From contig NZ_JAQUVZ010000015.1 in assembly GCF_028693135.1 (NCBI RefSeq), positions 1 through 64,000 of the forward strand: a stretch of DNA of 64,000 bases. Reading direction: 5' to 3'. Position numbers and translations under genes: made by a program. Below the pieces are notes generated by a model, which was not told where the DNA came from, searched no databases, and saw only the letters and a program-made list of their open reading frames with translations. This DNA is from Methanosarcina sp. (lineage in GTDB: Archaea > Halobacteriota > Methanosarcinia > Methanosarcinales > Methanosarcinaceae). This document shows positions 57,631 through 64,000 of this stretch, one piece after another (within the stretch, counting starts at the first letter, position 1; each line of letters opens with the position of its first letter).

Positions 57631-58236
57631 GTATTTTTAAAAGTTATCGTTTTGGATTATTTTATTACAGATTATATTTGTCTTTTACATTTCTTTTTTA
57701 AATTTATTTTTCATACATCAATTCTTTAGATCTGTTCCCCTCCTTTTATCCCACAGATTTGTATAATACAACGTGTGAGCTGGAACGTCTGGAGAAGAAA
57801 GGAATAAAGGGGTTTCCGCCGTGGAATATTCACATTAATGAGCTGATATAATAGATTATTAAGAAAATCTTCCAGGACTTATTGCTGAAAATAAAATAAA
57901 CAGATAGAGATAAATTTATATTATGTTAGGTTTTGAAGTTGCAGAAAAACAAAAAATAAAGCCTCAAGAAGATAGAGGATTGAACTGCTTAAAGTTATAG
58001 GGAAGATAAGGAATTGAGAGTGTAGAGCCTTAAATATGAAGCAGAGAAGTAATGTATTGTACGAAGTAACCATCGTTCAATGTATGAATGTTTTGGATCA
58101 GGAGTTTACCGGAAAATTTATACCGAGATAAAAATAAGAAACTTAATTTCGATGAATTATATAGCTACTTGTTAGTAAGCTACTGATGTACCAAAAATTT
58201 CCATTCATAGACTTGCGGGGACGGAGGCTAATTAAA
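57631..58236. other. A/T-rich intergenic region
   Basis: No gene is supported in these 606 bp. A C-terminal-like reading frame ending near 57851 looks protein-like but has no start or homologue I recognise. GGAGG lies 12 bases before the next start. Confidence 0.4.
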
Positions 58237-60459
58237 ATGAAAATAAGTTTTTTTCATTATTTGATTTATGTGTTGATAATAACAATGCTAATTCCTGGAA
58301 TTATGCCTTTCATAGTTGTTGCAGCTGAGGACATACCTTCCGAAGATGACGGAAATTCAACTATTTTACTGCCTGACCTGGTAACTGAGGATCTTTCCTG
58401 GAGCCCGGATAATCCAGAAATCGGAGAACAGGTGACCCTCACTGCAAAAGTAAAAAACCAGGGAGAAGCAACATCAGGAACAACGAATCTGGTTTTTTAT
58501 AGTGACGGAAATAAGATCGGAGAAAACTCAGTCCCTGAAATAGAAGCTGGAAAGAGTGAAAAAATATCGATTTTGTGGACACCGGAAACTGACAGTGAAG
58601 CGGAAATAAGTGCAAAGGTGGATGAAGAAGCTTCAGTGGAAGAAAGCAATGAGGATAATAATATCATAACCGCGGGTCCTATAACTTTCAAAGGGGCAAA
58701 AACCCCTGACCTGATAATAGACACTCTTGACTGCCCTGCAACCCCCAACCCTGGAGAACATCAGGATATAACGATAAGTGTGAAGAACCAGGGAACAGCA
58801 GCTTCAGAAAAGACTACGATGACACTTTACATTAACGGAAGTGCTGTTGACTACTGGGATGTGCCCAAGTTATCTGGTGATGAAAGCAGTTATGCCTCAT
58901 ATACATGGATTCCGACAGCAGAAGGATCTGTAGAGCTCAGAGCAGTTGTTGATGAAGACGGCCTGGTAGCTGAAAGTAATGAAGAGAACAACGAAAAAAC
59001 GGTCACCGTAACAGTAGCAGAAGATTTTCTCCCGGATCTGATAATTGAAGACATCGTGCCTGAATCGGCAGCGGGGGAAGTAGGAAAAACCCTGAACCTT
59101 ACCCTGAAAGTAAAGAACCAGGGCACGGCATCCTCTGAGGAAGTTCAGGCAAAATATTATATTAACGGAACCGCCCCCACACAGGATGACATTCAGATTC
59201 CAGCTCTTGCAGAAGGTGCAGGGGCAGATGTTAGATTTTCTCTGGTCCCGGATAGAGAAGGACAAATGGAAGTAAAAGTAAATATCGACTCCGGAACAAA
59301 CGTTTATGAGAGTAATGAAGATAACAATGAATTCACAAAGATTATAGATGTAAAAACCATACTTCCGGACCTTATAATAGAGTCTCTTTCTTTAAACCCG
59401 GAAGCTCCCGAAATAGGGGATGACATCACTTTCACAGTGTCAATAAAGAACAACGGGATCAGAGACTCCGCAAGCAGCGAGCTAAAATATTATATCAGCG
59501 GGACCAATGTAACTCAGGACGGAAAAGTATCGATACCTGAAATTGCCGTAGGGGAAACAAAAACGGGTATTTTTCACTGGGTTCCTGAAGCAGAAGGAAA
59601 CGTAAATGTGAGACTGGTAGCAGATGACGGAAATACCATACTTGAGGACGACGAGACAAATAATGAACTGACTAAGACAGTAAGTATCTCCAAACAAACT
59701 ACTTCCGGCAGTGAAGAGAACTCTGATTCCATACCCAGCAGTGGCAGTGGCAGTAGCAGTAGTAGTAGCAAAAGCAGCATGGGAAGTGGCGTTTCCAAAG
59801 AGCCAGCTAAGAATGTAGAGGTCAAAGAACTTGCTACAAGGAACATAATGAGCGGCTACCATGTCAAATATGATTTCGTGCAAAACGTCACATGTATCAC
59901 ATATATCGAGTTTGATCCGCAGAAGAATTTTAAGAAAACGACAGCAACCGTAGAGGTCCTCAAGGGAAAATCCATTTTTGTTCAGAATCAGCCGTCTGGA
60001 AGAATATACAGGCAAGTAAATATATGGCTGGGAAATAAAGGAGCAGGGAGTGAGGATTCCCTTAAGAACAGCTATACGGGGTTCAAAGTTGACAGGGAAT
60101 GGATAAAAAACAACAGTGTTAACGAATCCAACATAACCCTCCTATGGTACGATAGCAAATGGGAGCCTCTGAGCACCGAAAAAACGAGTGAAGACAAAGA
60201 CTACGTTTATTTCAGGGCAAAAACGCCTGCATATTCATGCTTTGCAATAAGTGAATATACAGGAGAAGAATCAGATGAAGGATTACAGGAAACTCTGAGA
60301 AACTGGAACGGCGAAGGAAAGGCAATCATGAACAGCAGTGCAGAAAGAGAAGAAGGCATCGTAAAGAAGCCTATGGGAACGGCTAAAATACTTCTTGCTA
60401 TATCCCTGCCTCTGTTTATGATTATTGCAGAGTACTTTGTTCTGAAGAAAAAGATCTGA
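58237..60459 (+). CDS. CARDB-repeat surface protein
   Basis: 740 residues from ATG 58237, supported by ACGGAGG upstream and a following signal segment (M-K-I-S-F-F-H-Y-L-I-Y-V-L-I). Four CARDB (cell-adhesion related) domains of ~105 residues follow, each beginning L-P-D-L or D-L-I-I and containing V-K-N-Q-G and E-S-N-E-D-N-N. A low-complexity Ser/Gly linker (S-G-S-G-S-S-S-S-S-S) near 505 leads to a PGF-pre-PGF-type domain with I-Y-R-Q-V-N-I-W and Y-V-Y-F-R-A-K-T-P-A-Y-S, then a C-terminal membrane helix and K-K-K-I. The domain before the anchor is shared in type with the PKD giant protein at 26088-31568. Likely outside the cell, adhesive or structural. Confidence 0.88.
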   Translation: MKISFFHYLIYVLIITMLIPGIMPFIVVAAEDIPSEDDGNSTILLPDLVTEDLSWSPDNPEIGEQVTLTAKVKNQGEATSGTTNLVFYSDGNKIGENSVPEIEAGKSEKISILWTPETDSEAEISAKVDEEASVEESNEDNNIITAGPITFKGAKTPDLIIDTLDCPATPNPGEHQDITISVKNQGTAASEKTTMTLYINGSAVDYWDVPKLSGDESSYASYTWIPTAEGSVELRAVVDEDGLVAESNEENNEKTVTVTVAEDFLPDLIIEDIVPESAAGEVGKTLNLTLKVKNQGTASSEEVQAKYYINGTAPTQDDIQIPALAEGAGADVRFSLVPDREGQMEVKVNIDSGTNVYESNEDNNEFTKIIDVKTILPDLIIESLSLNPEAPEIGDDITFTVSIKNNGIRDSASSELKYYISGTNVTQDGKVSIPEIAVGETKTGIFHWVPEAEGNVNVRLVADDGNTILEDDETNNELTKTVSISKQTTSGSEENSDSIPSSGSGSSSSSSKSSMGSGVSKEPAKNVEVKELATRNIMSGYHVKYDFVQNVTCITYIEFDPQKNFKKTTATVEVLKGKSIFVQNQPSGRIYRQVNIWLGNKGAGSEDSLKNSYTGFKVDREWIKNNSVNESNITLLWYDSKWEPLSTEKTSEDKDYVYFRAKTPAYSCFAISEYTGEESDEGLQETLRNWNGEGKAIMNSSAEREEGIVKKPMGTAKILLAISLPLFMIIAEYFVLKKKI

Positions 60460-61574: not shown

Positions 61575-61802
61575 GTGGCAGAACTGGAAGTAGACGTAAG
61601 AGGGCAGACCTGCCCGGTCCCGCTTGTAGAGTGCAGAAAAGCATTCAAAAAAGCCTCACCGGGAGACCTTGTAATAGTAAAGGGCACGCATCCGGCATCA
61701 AAAAAAGAGATTCCCATGGCATGTGAGGCGATGGGACTAAAGGTGCTGGAGATTGAAGACAAAGAGGGAGGAAAAGAGTGGGAGATAAAGATCCGGAGGT
61801 AA
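61575..61802 (+). CDS. TusA/SirA-family sulfur carrier
   Basis: 75 residues from GTG 61575, supported by GGGGGG upstream. It is one complete TusA fold; the persulfide cysteine is in R-G-Q-T-C-P-V-P-L-V (C-P-x-P motif) near residue 13. TusA proteins carry sulfane sulfur from a desulfurase to acceptors. Followed 19 bp later by a DsrE-like gene and then IscS-like and IscU genes, so a sulfur relay unit is likely. Confidence 0.92.
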   Translation: MAELEVDVRGQTCPVPLVECRKAFKKASPGDLVIVKGTHPASKKEIPMACEAMGLKVLEIEDKEGGKEWEIKIRR

Positions 61803-61821: not shown

Positions 61822-62241
61822 ATGGGGGAAAAGGCAGTTATTGTCCTGCACAGCGGGGATATGGACAAGGTATACAGTGCGCTTATAATTGCAAACGGGG
61901 CCCTGGCAATGGGAATGGAAGCCTCCATATTCATCACATTCTGGGGGCTCATGCGGCTTAAAAAAGGGGAGCTTGAGAAGGGGCCACTTTCCAAAATGAA
62001 CATGATGGGCCTGGGCAGGCAGATGATCAAAAAAAGGATGGATAAAGCCAATGTTGTCTCACTGGAAAGGCTGATGAGTGATTTCAAGGAACTTGGTGGA
62101 AAGATCATAGCCTGTGAAATGACCATGGAGATAATGGGCATAACAAAAGAAGATCTTCGAACGGAATGGGTGGACGAATGGGGAGCTGTTGGCACGTATA
62201 TCCAGGAAGCAAGGGATGCAAACATAACTCTCTTTATCTGA
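61822..62241 (+). CDS. DsrE/DsrF-like (peroxiredoxin-fold) sulfur relay protein
   Basis: 139 residues. DsrE/F/H-like alpha/beta fold with V-I-V-L-H-S-G-D-M-D-K-V-Y-S-A near the N-terminus, F-I-T-F-W-G-L-M near 37 and a cysteine in K-I-I-A-C-E-M-T-M near residue 98, where DsrE-family proteins hold a sulfur-carrying cysteine. Start is supported by AAGGAGGGG. Together with TusA it probably passes sulfane sulfur along a relay; the acceptor is not known. Confidence 0.88.
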   Translation: MGEKAVIVLHSGDMDKVYSALIIANGALAMGMEASIFITFWGLMRLKKGELEKGPLSKMNMMGLGRQMIKKRMDKANVVSLERLMSDFKELGGKIIACEMTMEIMGITKEDLRTEWVDEWGAVGTYIQEARDANITLFI

Positions 62242-62391: not shown

Positions 62392-63546
62392 ATGATTTAT
62401 CTTGACAATGCTGCATGTACCCGACTGGATGAAAGGGTGCTTGAAGCAATGAAGCCTTACTTTTTTGATACTTATGCGGTAGCGACATCCGAGTTTGGAT
62501 ATTCTATGGGCATCGATGCAAAAGAGGGGCTGGAAAATTCCAGGGAAAGTATAGCTTCAAGGATTGGTGCGAATTCCGAAGAAATTGTGTTTACTTCGGG
62601 AGATACGGAATCAAGCAATATGGCACTTAAAGGATCAGCCCTGGCCCTTAAGGAGAAGAAAGGCAAGCATATTATCGTTTCGAAGATAGAAGATTTTCCT
62701 GTATTAAATACGGCAAAAGCCCTCCAGAAGCAGGGCTTTGATGTAACTTTTCTGGATGTGGATGCCGAAGGGTTTGCAGACCTTGAAGGGCTCAAAAAAG
62801 CAATTACAAAAGAAACTGTCCTTGTCTCGATCCAGTACGCCAATCAGGAAATAGGGACTGCCCAGGACCTTAAGGCTATTTCTGAGATATGTGAAGAAAA
62901 AGACGTACTCCTGCATACCGATGCTACCCACAGCTTTACCCGGCTTCCCCTCAATGTGAAGGAATTGCCCGTAGACCTGGTGACGTTGTCAGCCCATACA
63001 ATTCACGGGCCCAGAGGGATAGGTGCGCTCTATATCCGGAAAAATACCCCCATAACGAAATTCATGGACGGAGGCTTTCAGGAATTTAACATGAGAGCAG
63101 GCGTAGAGAATATTCCCGGAGCCGTAGGATTTGCAACAGCTGTGGAGCTTGTAACCGAGGAAGAAAACCGGCGCCTTGAAGCTATGAGGGACCGCGTAAT
63201 CGAAAAGGCCCTTTCAGAGATCACGGATGTCACCCTCAACGGAAGTCACACGAAACGCCTGCCTCAGAATGCAAACCTGACTTTTCACTACGTTGAAGGA
63301 GAGTCCATAACCCTGCATATGGACATGCGGGGCTTTGCTGTAAGCACTGGTTCTGCCTGTTTTTCCCGCTCCCTTGAAGCCAGCCACGTGATCAGGGGAA
63401 TCGGAGGAGACCACGAAAGGGCTCACGGCTCGGTGCGCTTTACTTTCGGGCGCTACAACCGTATGGAAGATGCGGATTCCGCAATTGAAGCTATGATTGA
63501 AATTGTGGCAAGGCTCAGAGAAATAAGTCCGCTTGCAAAAAAATGA
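62392..63546 (+). CDS. IscS-like protein lacking the PLP lysine
   Basis: 384 residues, full length for IscS, aligned along all blocks (N-terminal I-Y-L-D-N-A-A, I-V-F-T-S-G-D-T-E-S-S-N, V-E-G-E-S). The persulfide cysteine is kept at C323 in S-T-G-S-A-C-F-S. But the cofactor site is altered: T203 replaces the Schiff-base lysine (A-H-T-I-H-G-P; normally H-K-I-x-G-P), D101 replaces His104 of E. coli IscS, Q152 replaces Asn155, and H180 replaces Gln183; D177 and R225-like positions remain. Cysteine desulfurase activity by the normal route looks unlikely. It may work as a sulfur-binding or scaffold protein next to TusA, DsrE and IscU. The gene is intact and codon use is normal, so it is not a pseudogene. 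A GGAGGGG lies ~18 bp before the ATG. Confidence 0.88.
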   Translation: MIYLDNAACTRLDERVLEAMKPYFFDTYAVATSEFGYSMGIDAKEGLENSRESIASRIGANSEEIVFTSGDTESSNMALKGSALALKEKKGKHIIVSKIEDFPVLNTAKALQKQGFDVTFLDVDAEGFADLEGLKKAITKETVLVSIQYANQEIGTAQDLKAISEICEEKDVLLHTDATHSFTRLPLNVKELPVDLVTLSAHTIHGPRGIGALYIRKNTPITKFMDGGFQEFNMRAGVENIPGAVGFATAVELVTEEENRRLEAMRDRVIEKALSEITDVTLNGSHTKRLPQNANLTFHYVEGESITLHMDMRGFAVSTGSACFSRSLEASHVIRGIGGDHERAHGSVRFTFGRYNRMEDADSAIEAMIEIVARLREISPLAKK

Positions 63547-63619: not shown

Positions 63620-64000
63620 ATGATTAAAGTAGAAAAGAAAGGTGAGGGTATAAGGTTTCCTTATAGCGAAAAAGTGCTGGAGCATTTCAGAAACCCGCAT
63701 AATGTAGGGAAAATAGAGAATCCTGACGGAAAAGGCCTGGAAGGAAGTCCGGCATGTGGAGACATGGTTGCTGTATATATTAAAGTCGAACCCGAAACAA
63801 AGGTTATTGAAGACGTAAAATTCGAATCTTACGGGTGTGCTTCTAATATTGCTACAGGGTCCGTAATCACGGATCTTGCACGGGGAAAAACTCTGGATGA
63901 AGCAAAGAAAATAACATGGAAACAGGCTTCTGAAGAACTGGGGGGGCTTCCTCCGATTAAAGCCCACTGCTCCGTGCTTGCAGTTGAGGGTCTGCGTGCC
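63620..64000 (+). CDS. iscU: IscU-like iron-sulfur scaffold, partial
   Basis: The frame begins at ATG 63620 (GGGGAGAAAGG ahead) and is open to the window edge, so only ~127 residues are seen. Sequence matches IscU: Y-S-E-K-V-L-E-H-F-R-N-P-H-N-V-G, the first ligand S-P-A-C-G-D-M, the second Y-G-C-A-S-N, and the third A-H-C-S-V-L-A. These three cysteines assemble [2Fe-2S] and [4Fe-4S] clusters. Its partner here is the IscS-like protein 73 bp upstream, which lacks the PLP lysine, so sulfur may come from elsewhere. M. acetivorans is known to have three iscSU pairs. Confidence 0.9.
   Translation, partial: MIKVEKKGEGIRFPYSEKVLEHFRNPHNVGKIENPDGKGLEGSPACGDMVAVYIKVEPETKVIEDVKFESYGCASNIATGSVITDLARGKTLDEAKKITWKQASEELGGLPPIKAHCSVLAVEGLRA

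Follow-up and report, generated by a model that had tools for sequence, protein, structure and literature searches.

A conserved family of IscS-type proteins without the PLP lysine in archaea and bacteria, encoded together with TusA, DsrE and an IscU-MIP18 fusion

The 64,000 nucleotide stretch of Methanosarcina DNA analyzed here (the window) contains a gene for an IscS-type protein without the PLP lysine, which we call iscS*. The analysis added that this protein belongs to a strongly constrained family that crosses the border between archaea and bacteria, with a fixed signature of five residues and a four-gene operon comprising an IscU-MIP18 fusion. We tentatively propose, at odds that we judge to be close to even, that IscS* is a PLP-free pseudo-desulfurase: within a dedicated ISC-type system that works independently of cysteine, it may be the subunit for docking and persulfide relay. 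The wider proposal, to which we give a somewhat smaller chance, is a widespread Fe-S assembly system of strict anaerobes among archaea and bacteria, in which TusA/DsrE and a PLP-free IscS would replace cysteine desulfuration and feed IscU-MIP18, sometimes as the sole ISC-type machinery.

Results

Exchanged and retained residues of IscS*

The open reading frame of iscS* (62392 to 63546, plus strand) starts with ATG, is uninterrupted by stops and codes for 384 amino acids, at the very place where the initial annotation had located a full-length and otherwise conserved protein. The homology covers the full length (233 bits with PF00266) and extends to the level of the fold. The predicted structure (mean pLDDT 87.5, pTM 0.89) matches E. 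coli IscS and human Nfs1 with TM scores of 0.92-0.93, and with the A. fulgidus IscS structures 4eb5, 4eb7 and 4hvk included the range is 0.90-0.94, so the IscS fold is predicted to be intact. The loops 226-237 and 322-327 have pLDDT values below 50, and the loop of Cys323 is therefore predicted to be mobile. The window protein missed the curated equivalog cut-offs of TIGR03402 (435 versus 531 bits), TIGR02006 (383 versus 643 bits) and NF010611 (389 versus 548 bits); the Lys-bearing paralogue of the same genome scored 600 bits on TIGR03402, above the cut-off. This genome (89 contigs) encodes a canonical Lys-bearing IscS on contig C3, which is 46% identical to IscS*, and a SufS-type protein on contig C23.

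An alignment with E. coli IscS confirmed, residue for residue, the four exchanges at the PLP site that had been claimed before. The PLP-stacking H104 is replaced by Asp101 (62692 to 62694), N155 by Gln152 (62845 to 62847), Q183 by His180 (62929 to 62931) and the Schiff-base lysine K206 by Thr203 (62998 to 63000). As also claimed, the cysteine of the persulfide loop is kept (Cys323, canonical C328, 63358 to 63360, within GSACFSRSLE), and the same is true for D177 (canonical D180) and R349 (canonical R354). At the position of the canonical FGNPSS-H (GNPSS-H) loop stands the family motif YAVATSEFG (residues 28-36, 62473 to 62499), which is two residues longer. Judged by its sequence, window IscS* is the orthologue of M. 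acetivorans IscS1 (MA0808), because both have STGSACFS at residues 318-325 (Table 1 of PMC7585200).

Breadth and conservation of the family

One genome per species from 84,980 species was scanned for homologues using the peptide patterns MDGGFQE and VATSEFGY. Of the 193 relatives detected, the 80 best were aligned together with the window protein (81 sequences). Asp, Gln, His and the Cys-Phe-Ser of the loop are identical in 81/81 of this set, the position of Thr203 is occupied by Thr in 79 sequences and by Leu in two, and all rows have YAVATSEFG or a close variant. The initial annotation had recommended an alignment with the IscS of all Methanosarcina; in 20 Methanosarcina species IscS* is 84-92% identical, and D101, Q152, H180, T203 and C323 were invariant. 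The substitutions are thus not limited to one sequence, and an oddity of one species is ruled out by the homologues across archaea and bacteria.

The archaeal carriers belong to Methanosarcina, Methanolobus, Methanococcoides, Methanohalophilus, Methanomethylovorans, Methanothrix, Methanofastidiosum (Methanofastidiosa) and Altiarchaeales, and the bacterial carriers to Dehalococcoidia, Anaerolineae, Syntrophales, Atribacteria and Thermodesulfovibrionales. Individual taxon labels need care since many carriers are MAGs; two family members are located on records labelled as Dehalococcoidales chromosomes (CP070645 and CP070842). Profile searches revealed a gap in score between the full-length family (at least 665 bits) and ordinary IscS (at most 427 bits). 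Within the archaeal phylum IscS* was present in 55 of 393 genomes and 6 of 136 genera, all Methanosarcinaceae, plus one Methanothrix. A pattern-free profile search of one bacterial class detected IscS* in 8 of 294 genomes, some of the members being new. All eight carry the residue signature and the full operon, which speaks against a signature produced by the bias of the peptide patterns. The patchy distribution suggests horizontal transfer of the unit.

Selection on the cofactor site and phylogeny

Among 53 positions that are invariant in 23 Lys-bearing IscS proteins, 40 are kept in the IscS* family, seven are changed and fixed (N35V, H104D, N155Q, Q183H, K206T, I249A and L339I) and six are variable, including T243, the PLP-phosphate residue of the second subunit. 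The PLP contacts, which we take to be those established for E. coli IscS, were enriched among the positions with a fixed change (4 of 7 contacts versus 3 of 46 other positions; Fisher p=0.004 with positions treated as independent). Because PLP contacts are over-represented among the fixed changes and the other positions are mostly kept, the alignment points to a directed replacement of the cofactor site and not to general decay. The pairwise dN/dS values were 0.05-0.12 (NG86, nine pairs of the family).

In a mixture-model tree with 62 rows the Lys-less sequences formed one side of one branch with a support of 100/100 and have a compact crown on a long stem (0.83 changes per site). The A. fulgidus IscS was placed among the canonical sequences. 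Forcing it into the Lys-less group was 20 log units worse, but the AU test did not reject this arrangement (p=0.19); one common loss of the lysine in both lines is compatible with this test but not supported by it.

Organization of the operon

The gene iscS* is preceded by a tusA-like gene (61575 to 61802; GTG start, 75 amino acids, Cys13 in a CPxP motif, family motif GTHPASKKEIPMA) and a dsrE2-like gene (61822 to 62241; 139 amino acids, single conserved Cys98). The gene downstream (63620 to 64000, continuing beyond the window to C1:64285) encodes IscU fused in one open reading frame to a MIP18/FeS_assembly_P (DUF59) domain. All four genes are located on the plus strand. The initial annotation had named TusA, DsrE and IscU as neighbors, which agrees with the matches to PF01206 (72 bits, cut-off 28.6), PF13686 (129 bits) and PF01592, and had missed the fusion of IscU to PF01883. 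The dsrE2-like product reached 63 bits on NCBIfam NF047629 (cut-off 210). Cys13 of TusA is present in 71/71 operon homologues, Cys98 of DsrE in 70/72, and Cys46, Cys73 and Cys117 of IscU are conserved in 80/80. The fusion is in frame in 79/79 loci with a complete scaffold gene, and seven apparent stops precede the start codon. The MIP18 part of the window protein contains no cysteine.

Inspection of the loci of the best 80 of 193 relatives revealed the order tusA-dsrE-iscS*-iscU::MIP18 in 65 of 80, tusA-dsrE downstream in three and iscS*-iscU alone in eight; iscS* and iscU are adjacent in most loci, without other isc genes. No further neighbor family recurred across the 80 loci except for an artefact of overlapping frames. 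For the five domains, pairwise distances are correlated with r values of 0.65-0.83 in the whole set and of 0.56-0.76 when Methanosarcinaceae are left aside, which would be expected if the unit travels together. Three loci, one from Altiarchaeales and two from Dehalococcoidia (L100, L102 and L109), contain a canonical iscS-iscU pair about 2-3 kb from the iscS* operon, and the canonical IscU at these sites is without the MIP18 fusion. A HIT-domain protein (PF01230, 60960 to 61379) ahead of tusA is probably not part of the IscS* system, since it occurs at this place only in Methanosarcina and a few near relatives. Further upstream the window encodes a 757 amino acid protein with four CARDB repeats (58186 to 60459), probably a surface protein without relation to the operon.

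Binding of TusA to E. coli IscS requires W45, E49 and D52, which contact R27 and R31 of TusA (PMC2854127). The position of E49 is acidic in 81/81 IscS* sequences versus Glu in 5 of 22 canonical homologues; that of D52 is acidic in 66/81 and that of W45 is Ile in 78/81. The operon TusA has Arg at R27 and Arg or Lys at R31, each in 72/72. This pattern of residues is consistent with docking of TusA on IscS*.

Co-retention and natural losses

Among 112 Methanosarcinaceae genomes, which are related to each other, 80 contain both IscS* and DsrE, four only IscS*, none only DsrE and 28 neither of them. In Methanococcoides the tusA-dsrE pair is located at a separate locus (in genome G117 at C1:79875 versus C1:264607 for IscS*), and none of the ten genomes that are at least 97% complete has lost this separate pair. 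The complete genomes of three Methanococcoides (G117, G118 and G120) and one Methanohalophilus (G135) contain SufS and no canonical IscS, so that IscS* is their only IscS-type protein. A Methanothrix draft MAG (G195, locus L123, 95% complete) has IscS* with its operon and no other IscS or SufS; in the congeners tested canonical IscS is present, and IscS* is a possible replacement of canonical IscS/SufS in this organism. In 5 of 18 other carrier genomes only IscS* and a distant class-V aminotransferase were found; these five are drafts and include G195/G561.

Losses were also observed. One Methanosarcina genome (G004, 99% complete) is a natural knock-out without IscS*, operon TusA, DsrE and canonical IscS, and only a SufS-type protein is left. 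Two Methanosarcina MAGs from peat contain a degenerate dsrE remnant (40-43%) upstream of intact iscS*-iscU (L056, 3445-3828; L057, 4042-4455), and in one of them (G017) the match in the whole genome holds four stops. DsrE is hence not strictly required, given that IscS* and IscU are intact in two MAGs with decayed or missing dsrE, and the gene may be dispensable in these organisms.

Discussion

A possible function of IscS*

In the explanation that we favor, sulfane sulfur would travel bound to Cys98 (DsrE) and Cys13 (TusA), TusA would dock on IscS*, and the sulfur would move to Cys323 on the mobile loop. From there the IscU domain would receive it at its Cys site and build the cluster with the aid of the fused MIP18 domain. 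Several lines of evidence support this relay. The sequences document the loss of the lysine and of other PLP contacts, in a selective manner, with the Asp/Gln/His signature and the Cys loop kept throughout the 81 sequences of one clade under low dN/dS. The order of the operon and the cysteines of TusA, DsrE and IscU are conserved, and IscS* is co-retained with DsrE. The acidic E49 position together with R27/R31 of TusA, and the complete genomes in which IscS* is the sole IscS-type protein, argue in the same direction. That PLP is absent, what donates the sulfur, in which direction and order it moves and that a cluster is assembled are inferences.

The initial annotation had suggested that PLP-dependent desulfuration is lost, for which the sequence and the A. 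fulgidus precedent provide good support. Its idea of a sulfur carrier or scaffold for IscU also gained support, from an operon shared by archaea and bacteria, from the conserved cysteines and from purifying selection throughout the clade. The use of sulfide or sulfane sulfur, which it had added, is no more than plausible: no sulfur donor was found, and a characterized TusA is unreactive with sulfide or polysulfide (PMC4175335). Taken together, this earlier interpretation was partly supported and partly anticipated in print.

Some observations count against the relay. One studied DsrE/TusA pair moves thiosulfonate and was unreactive towards sulfide, polysulfide and glutathione persulfide (PMC4175335), the iscS* operon contains no rhodanese or other donor enzyme, and DsrE is decayed or missing in the two peat MAGs with intact IscS* and IscU. 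Moreover, if IscS* were only a relay, there would be no explanation for why D101, Q152 and H180 never vary. Sulfide is nevertheless plausible as the ultimate sulfur source by analogy, because in E. coli without IscS cluster assembly under anoxia is fed by H2S in an IscU-dependent manner (PMC13015791) and sulfide is the source in a different minimal system from archaea (PMC12192291).

Alternative explanations

It is possible, if rather doubtful in our view, that IscS* is a scaffold of the A. fulgidus type. Cys323 would then provide the fourth ligand for the cluster forming on IscU instead of carrying sulfur, free sulfide would be the source, and TusA and DsrE would serve another step or bring cluster sulfur independently. 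A. fulgidus IscS is reported to be without lysine and activity and to ligate the [2Fe-2S] cluster of IscU through its loop cysteine; the same role was proposed for IscS1 by Deere et al. (PMC7585200). The TM scores of the IscS* model to 4eb5, 4eb7 and 4hvk (0.90-0.94) and the H2S-fed assembly via IscU in anoxic E. coli without IscS (PMC13015791) would fit such a role, but it leaves the linkage and co-retention of TusA and DsrE unexplained. In addition, H104 and N155 are still present in A. fulgidus IscS and R354 is lost, the opposite of what is seen in IscS*; with such different patterns of pocket residues the two proteins need not work alike. Cluster ligation of this kind and the favored relay are not mutually exclusive.

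We consider it unlikely that the former PLP pocket has been rebuilt into an active site which binds another ligand or catalyzes a new step, e.g. generation or reduction of persulfide, by means of D101, Q152, H180 and T203 together with H202, H205, D177 and R349. The new residues are polar and the same in archaea and bacteria, and both H205 (canonical Tyr/His) and R349 (the canonical Arg for the substrate carboxylate) are kept. However, neither a ligand nor a reaction is indicated, and these residues could merely fill the vacated cavity as a structural network of hydrogen bonds.

A regulatory pseudoenzyme that forms a heterodimer with the active IscS of the cell, or competes with it, is very improbable: the genome of the window would offer a partner in the Lys-bearing IscS on contig C3, but no IscS-type protein besides IscS* is encoded in the four complete genomes of Methanococcoides and Methanohalophilus. 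Slightly less credit still is due to a remaining cysteine desulfurase with non-covalently bound PLP or PMP that needs no lysine. Asp177 at the pyridine nitrogen, Thr72 and His202 at the phosphate site and Arg349 are mostly kept, but the lysine, the stacking His, Asn, Gln and Thr243 of the second subunit are all replaced, and the Lys-less homologue from A. fulgidus is reported as inactive (PMC7585200). A sequencing error or a recently decayed gene has practically no chance and was rejected on the basis of the 81/81 conservation and the dN/dS of 0.05-0.12, even though one relative (G019) is interrupted by stops and loss does happen.

Relevance for anaerobic Fe-S assembly

Methanococcus maripaludis uses sulfide and not cysteine, and deletion of sufBC or iscSU2 in M. 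acetivorans had little effect (PMC10500019, PMC7585200). The IscS* operon is a concrete and genetically accessible candidate for the missing sulfur route to Fe-S clusters in methanogens and sulfidic anaerobes. That IscS* travels with carrier and Fe-S assembly genes suggests a route which does not start from cysteine. The replacements in the pocket, fixed across two domains, also represent a natural experiment in which a PLP enzyme may have been converted to a partner protein without PLP.

Comparison with known systems

In the literature searched, a published account of the cross-domain family and of the operon with IscU-MIP18 was not found, with the work of Garcia from 2022 outside its coverage. 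That work reportedly introduced the MIS system, consisting of MisS and MisU. The MIS (minimal ISC) system resembles the iscS* loci as a bare IscS-IscU pair in anaerobic archaea (PMC12192291, PMC12442378). It is described with a cysteine desulfurase, whereas the IscS* operon encodes a protein devoid of the PLP site, together with TusA, DsrE and the MIP18 fusion as additional components.

For one species, the central part of this finding was already known from the work of Deere et al. on M. acetivorans, the only relevant literature found for the locus tags MA0807-MA0809. These authors described IscS1 as lacking the PLP-binding residues including the essential lysine and compared it with the IscS of A. 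fulgidus, which is inactive (Deere 2020, PMC7585200). The recombinant protein formed inclusion bodies, and a table of the same paper marks IscS1 as detected in the proteome. IscS1 and IscU1 (MA0808/MA0807) correspond to the window in the motif STGSACFS at 318-325, in the missing PLP residues and lysine and in the long IscU1 (24.2 kDa). IscS1 is clustered with genes called unknown by Deere et al.; their text does not name the TusA and DsrE neighbors and covers neither homologues of this type outside Methanosarcina nor functional data on IscS1.

The A. fulgidus IscS (4eb5, 4eb7 and 4hvk) is the closest solved structure by sequence and shares with IscS* the IscS fold, the replaced lysine (Asp199), the kept loop cysteine and the IscU partner. 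It differs in the retained H104 and N155, in Ala, Asn, Asp and Leu at the positions of Q183, H205, K206 and R354 and in the lack of YAVATSEFG. Because the A. fulgidus protein is also without R354 (Leu), H205 (Asn) and Q183 (Ala), the two Lys-less lines appear to have taken different changes in the pocket. Finally, the tusA-dsrE2 clusters of sulfur oxidizers also contain TusA and DsrE2-type carriers side by side (PMC4175335). In these organisms they are linked to rhodanese, Dsr or Hdr and to sulfur oxidation, whereas in the strict anaerobes considered here their genes accompany those of IscS*/IscU.
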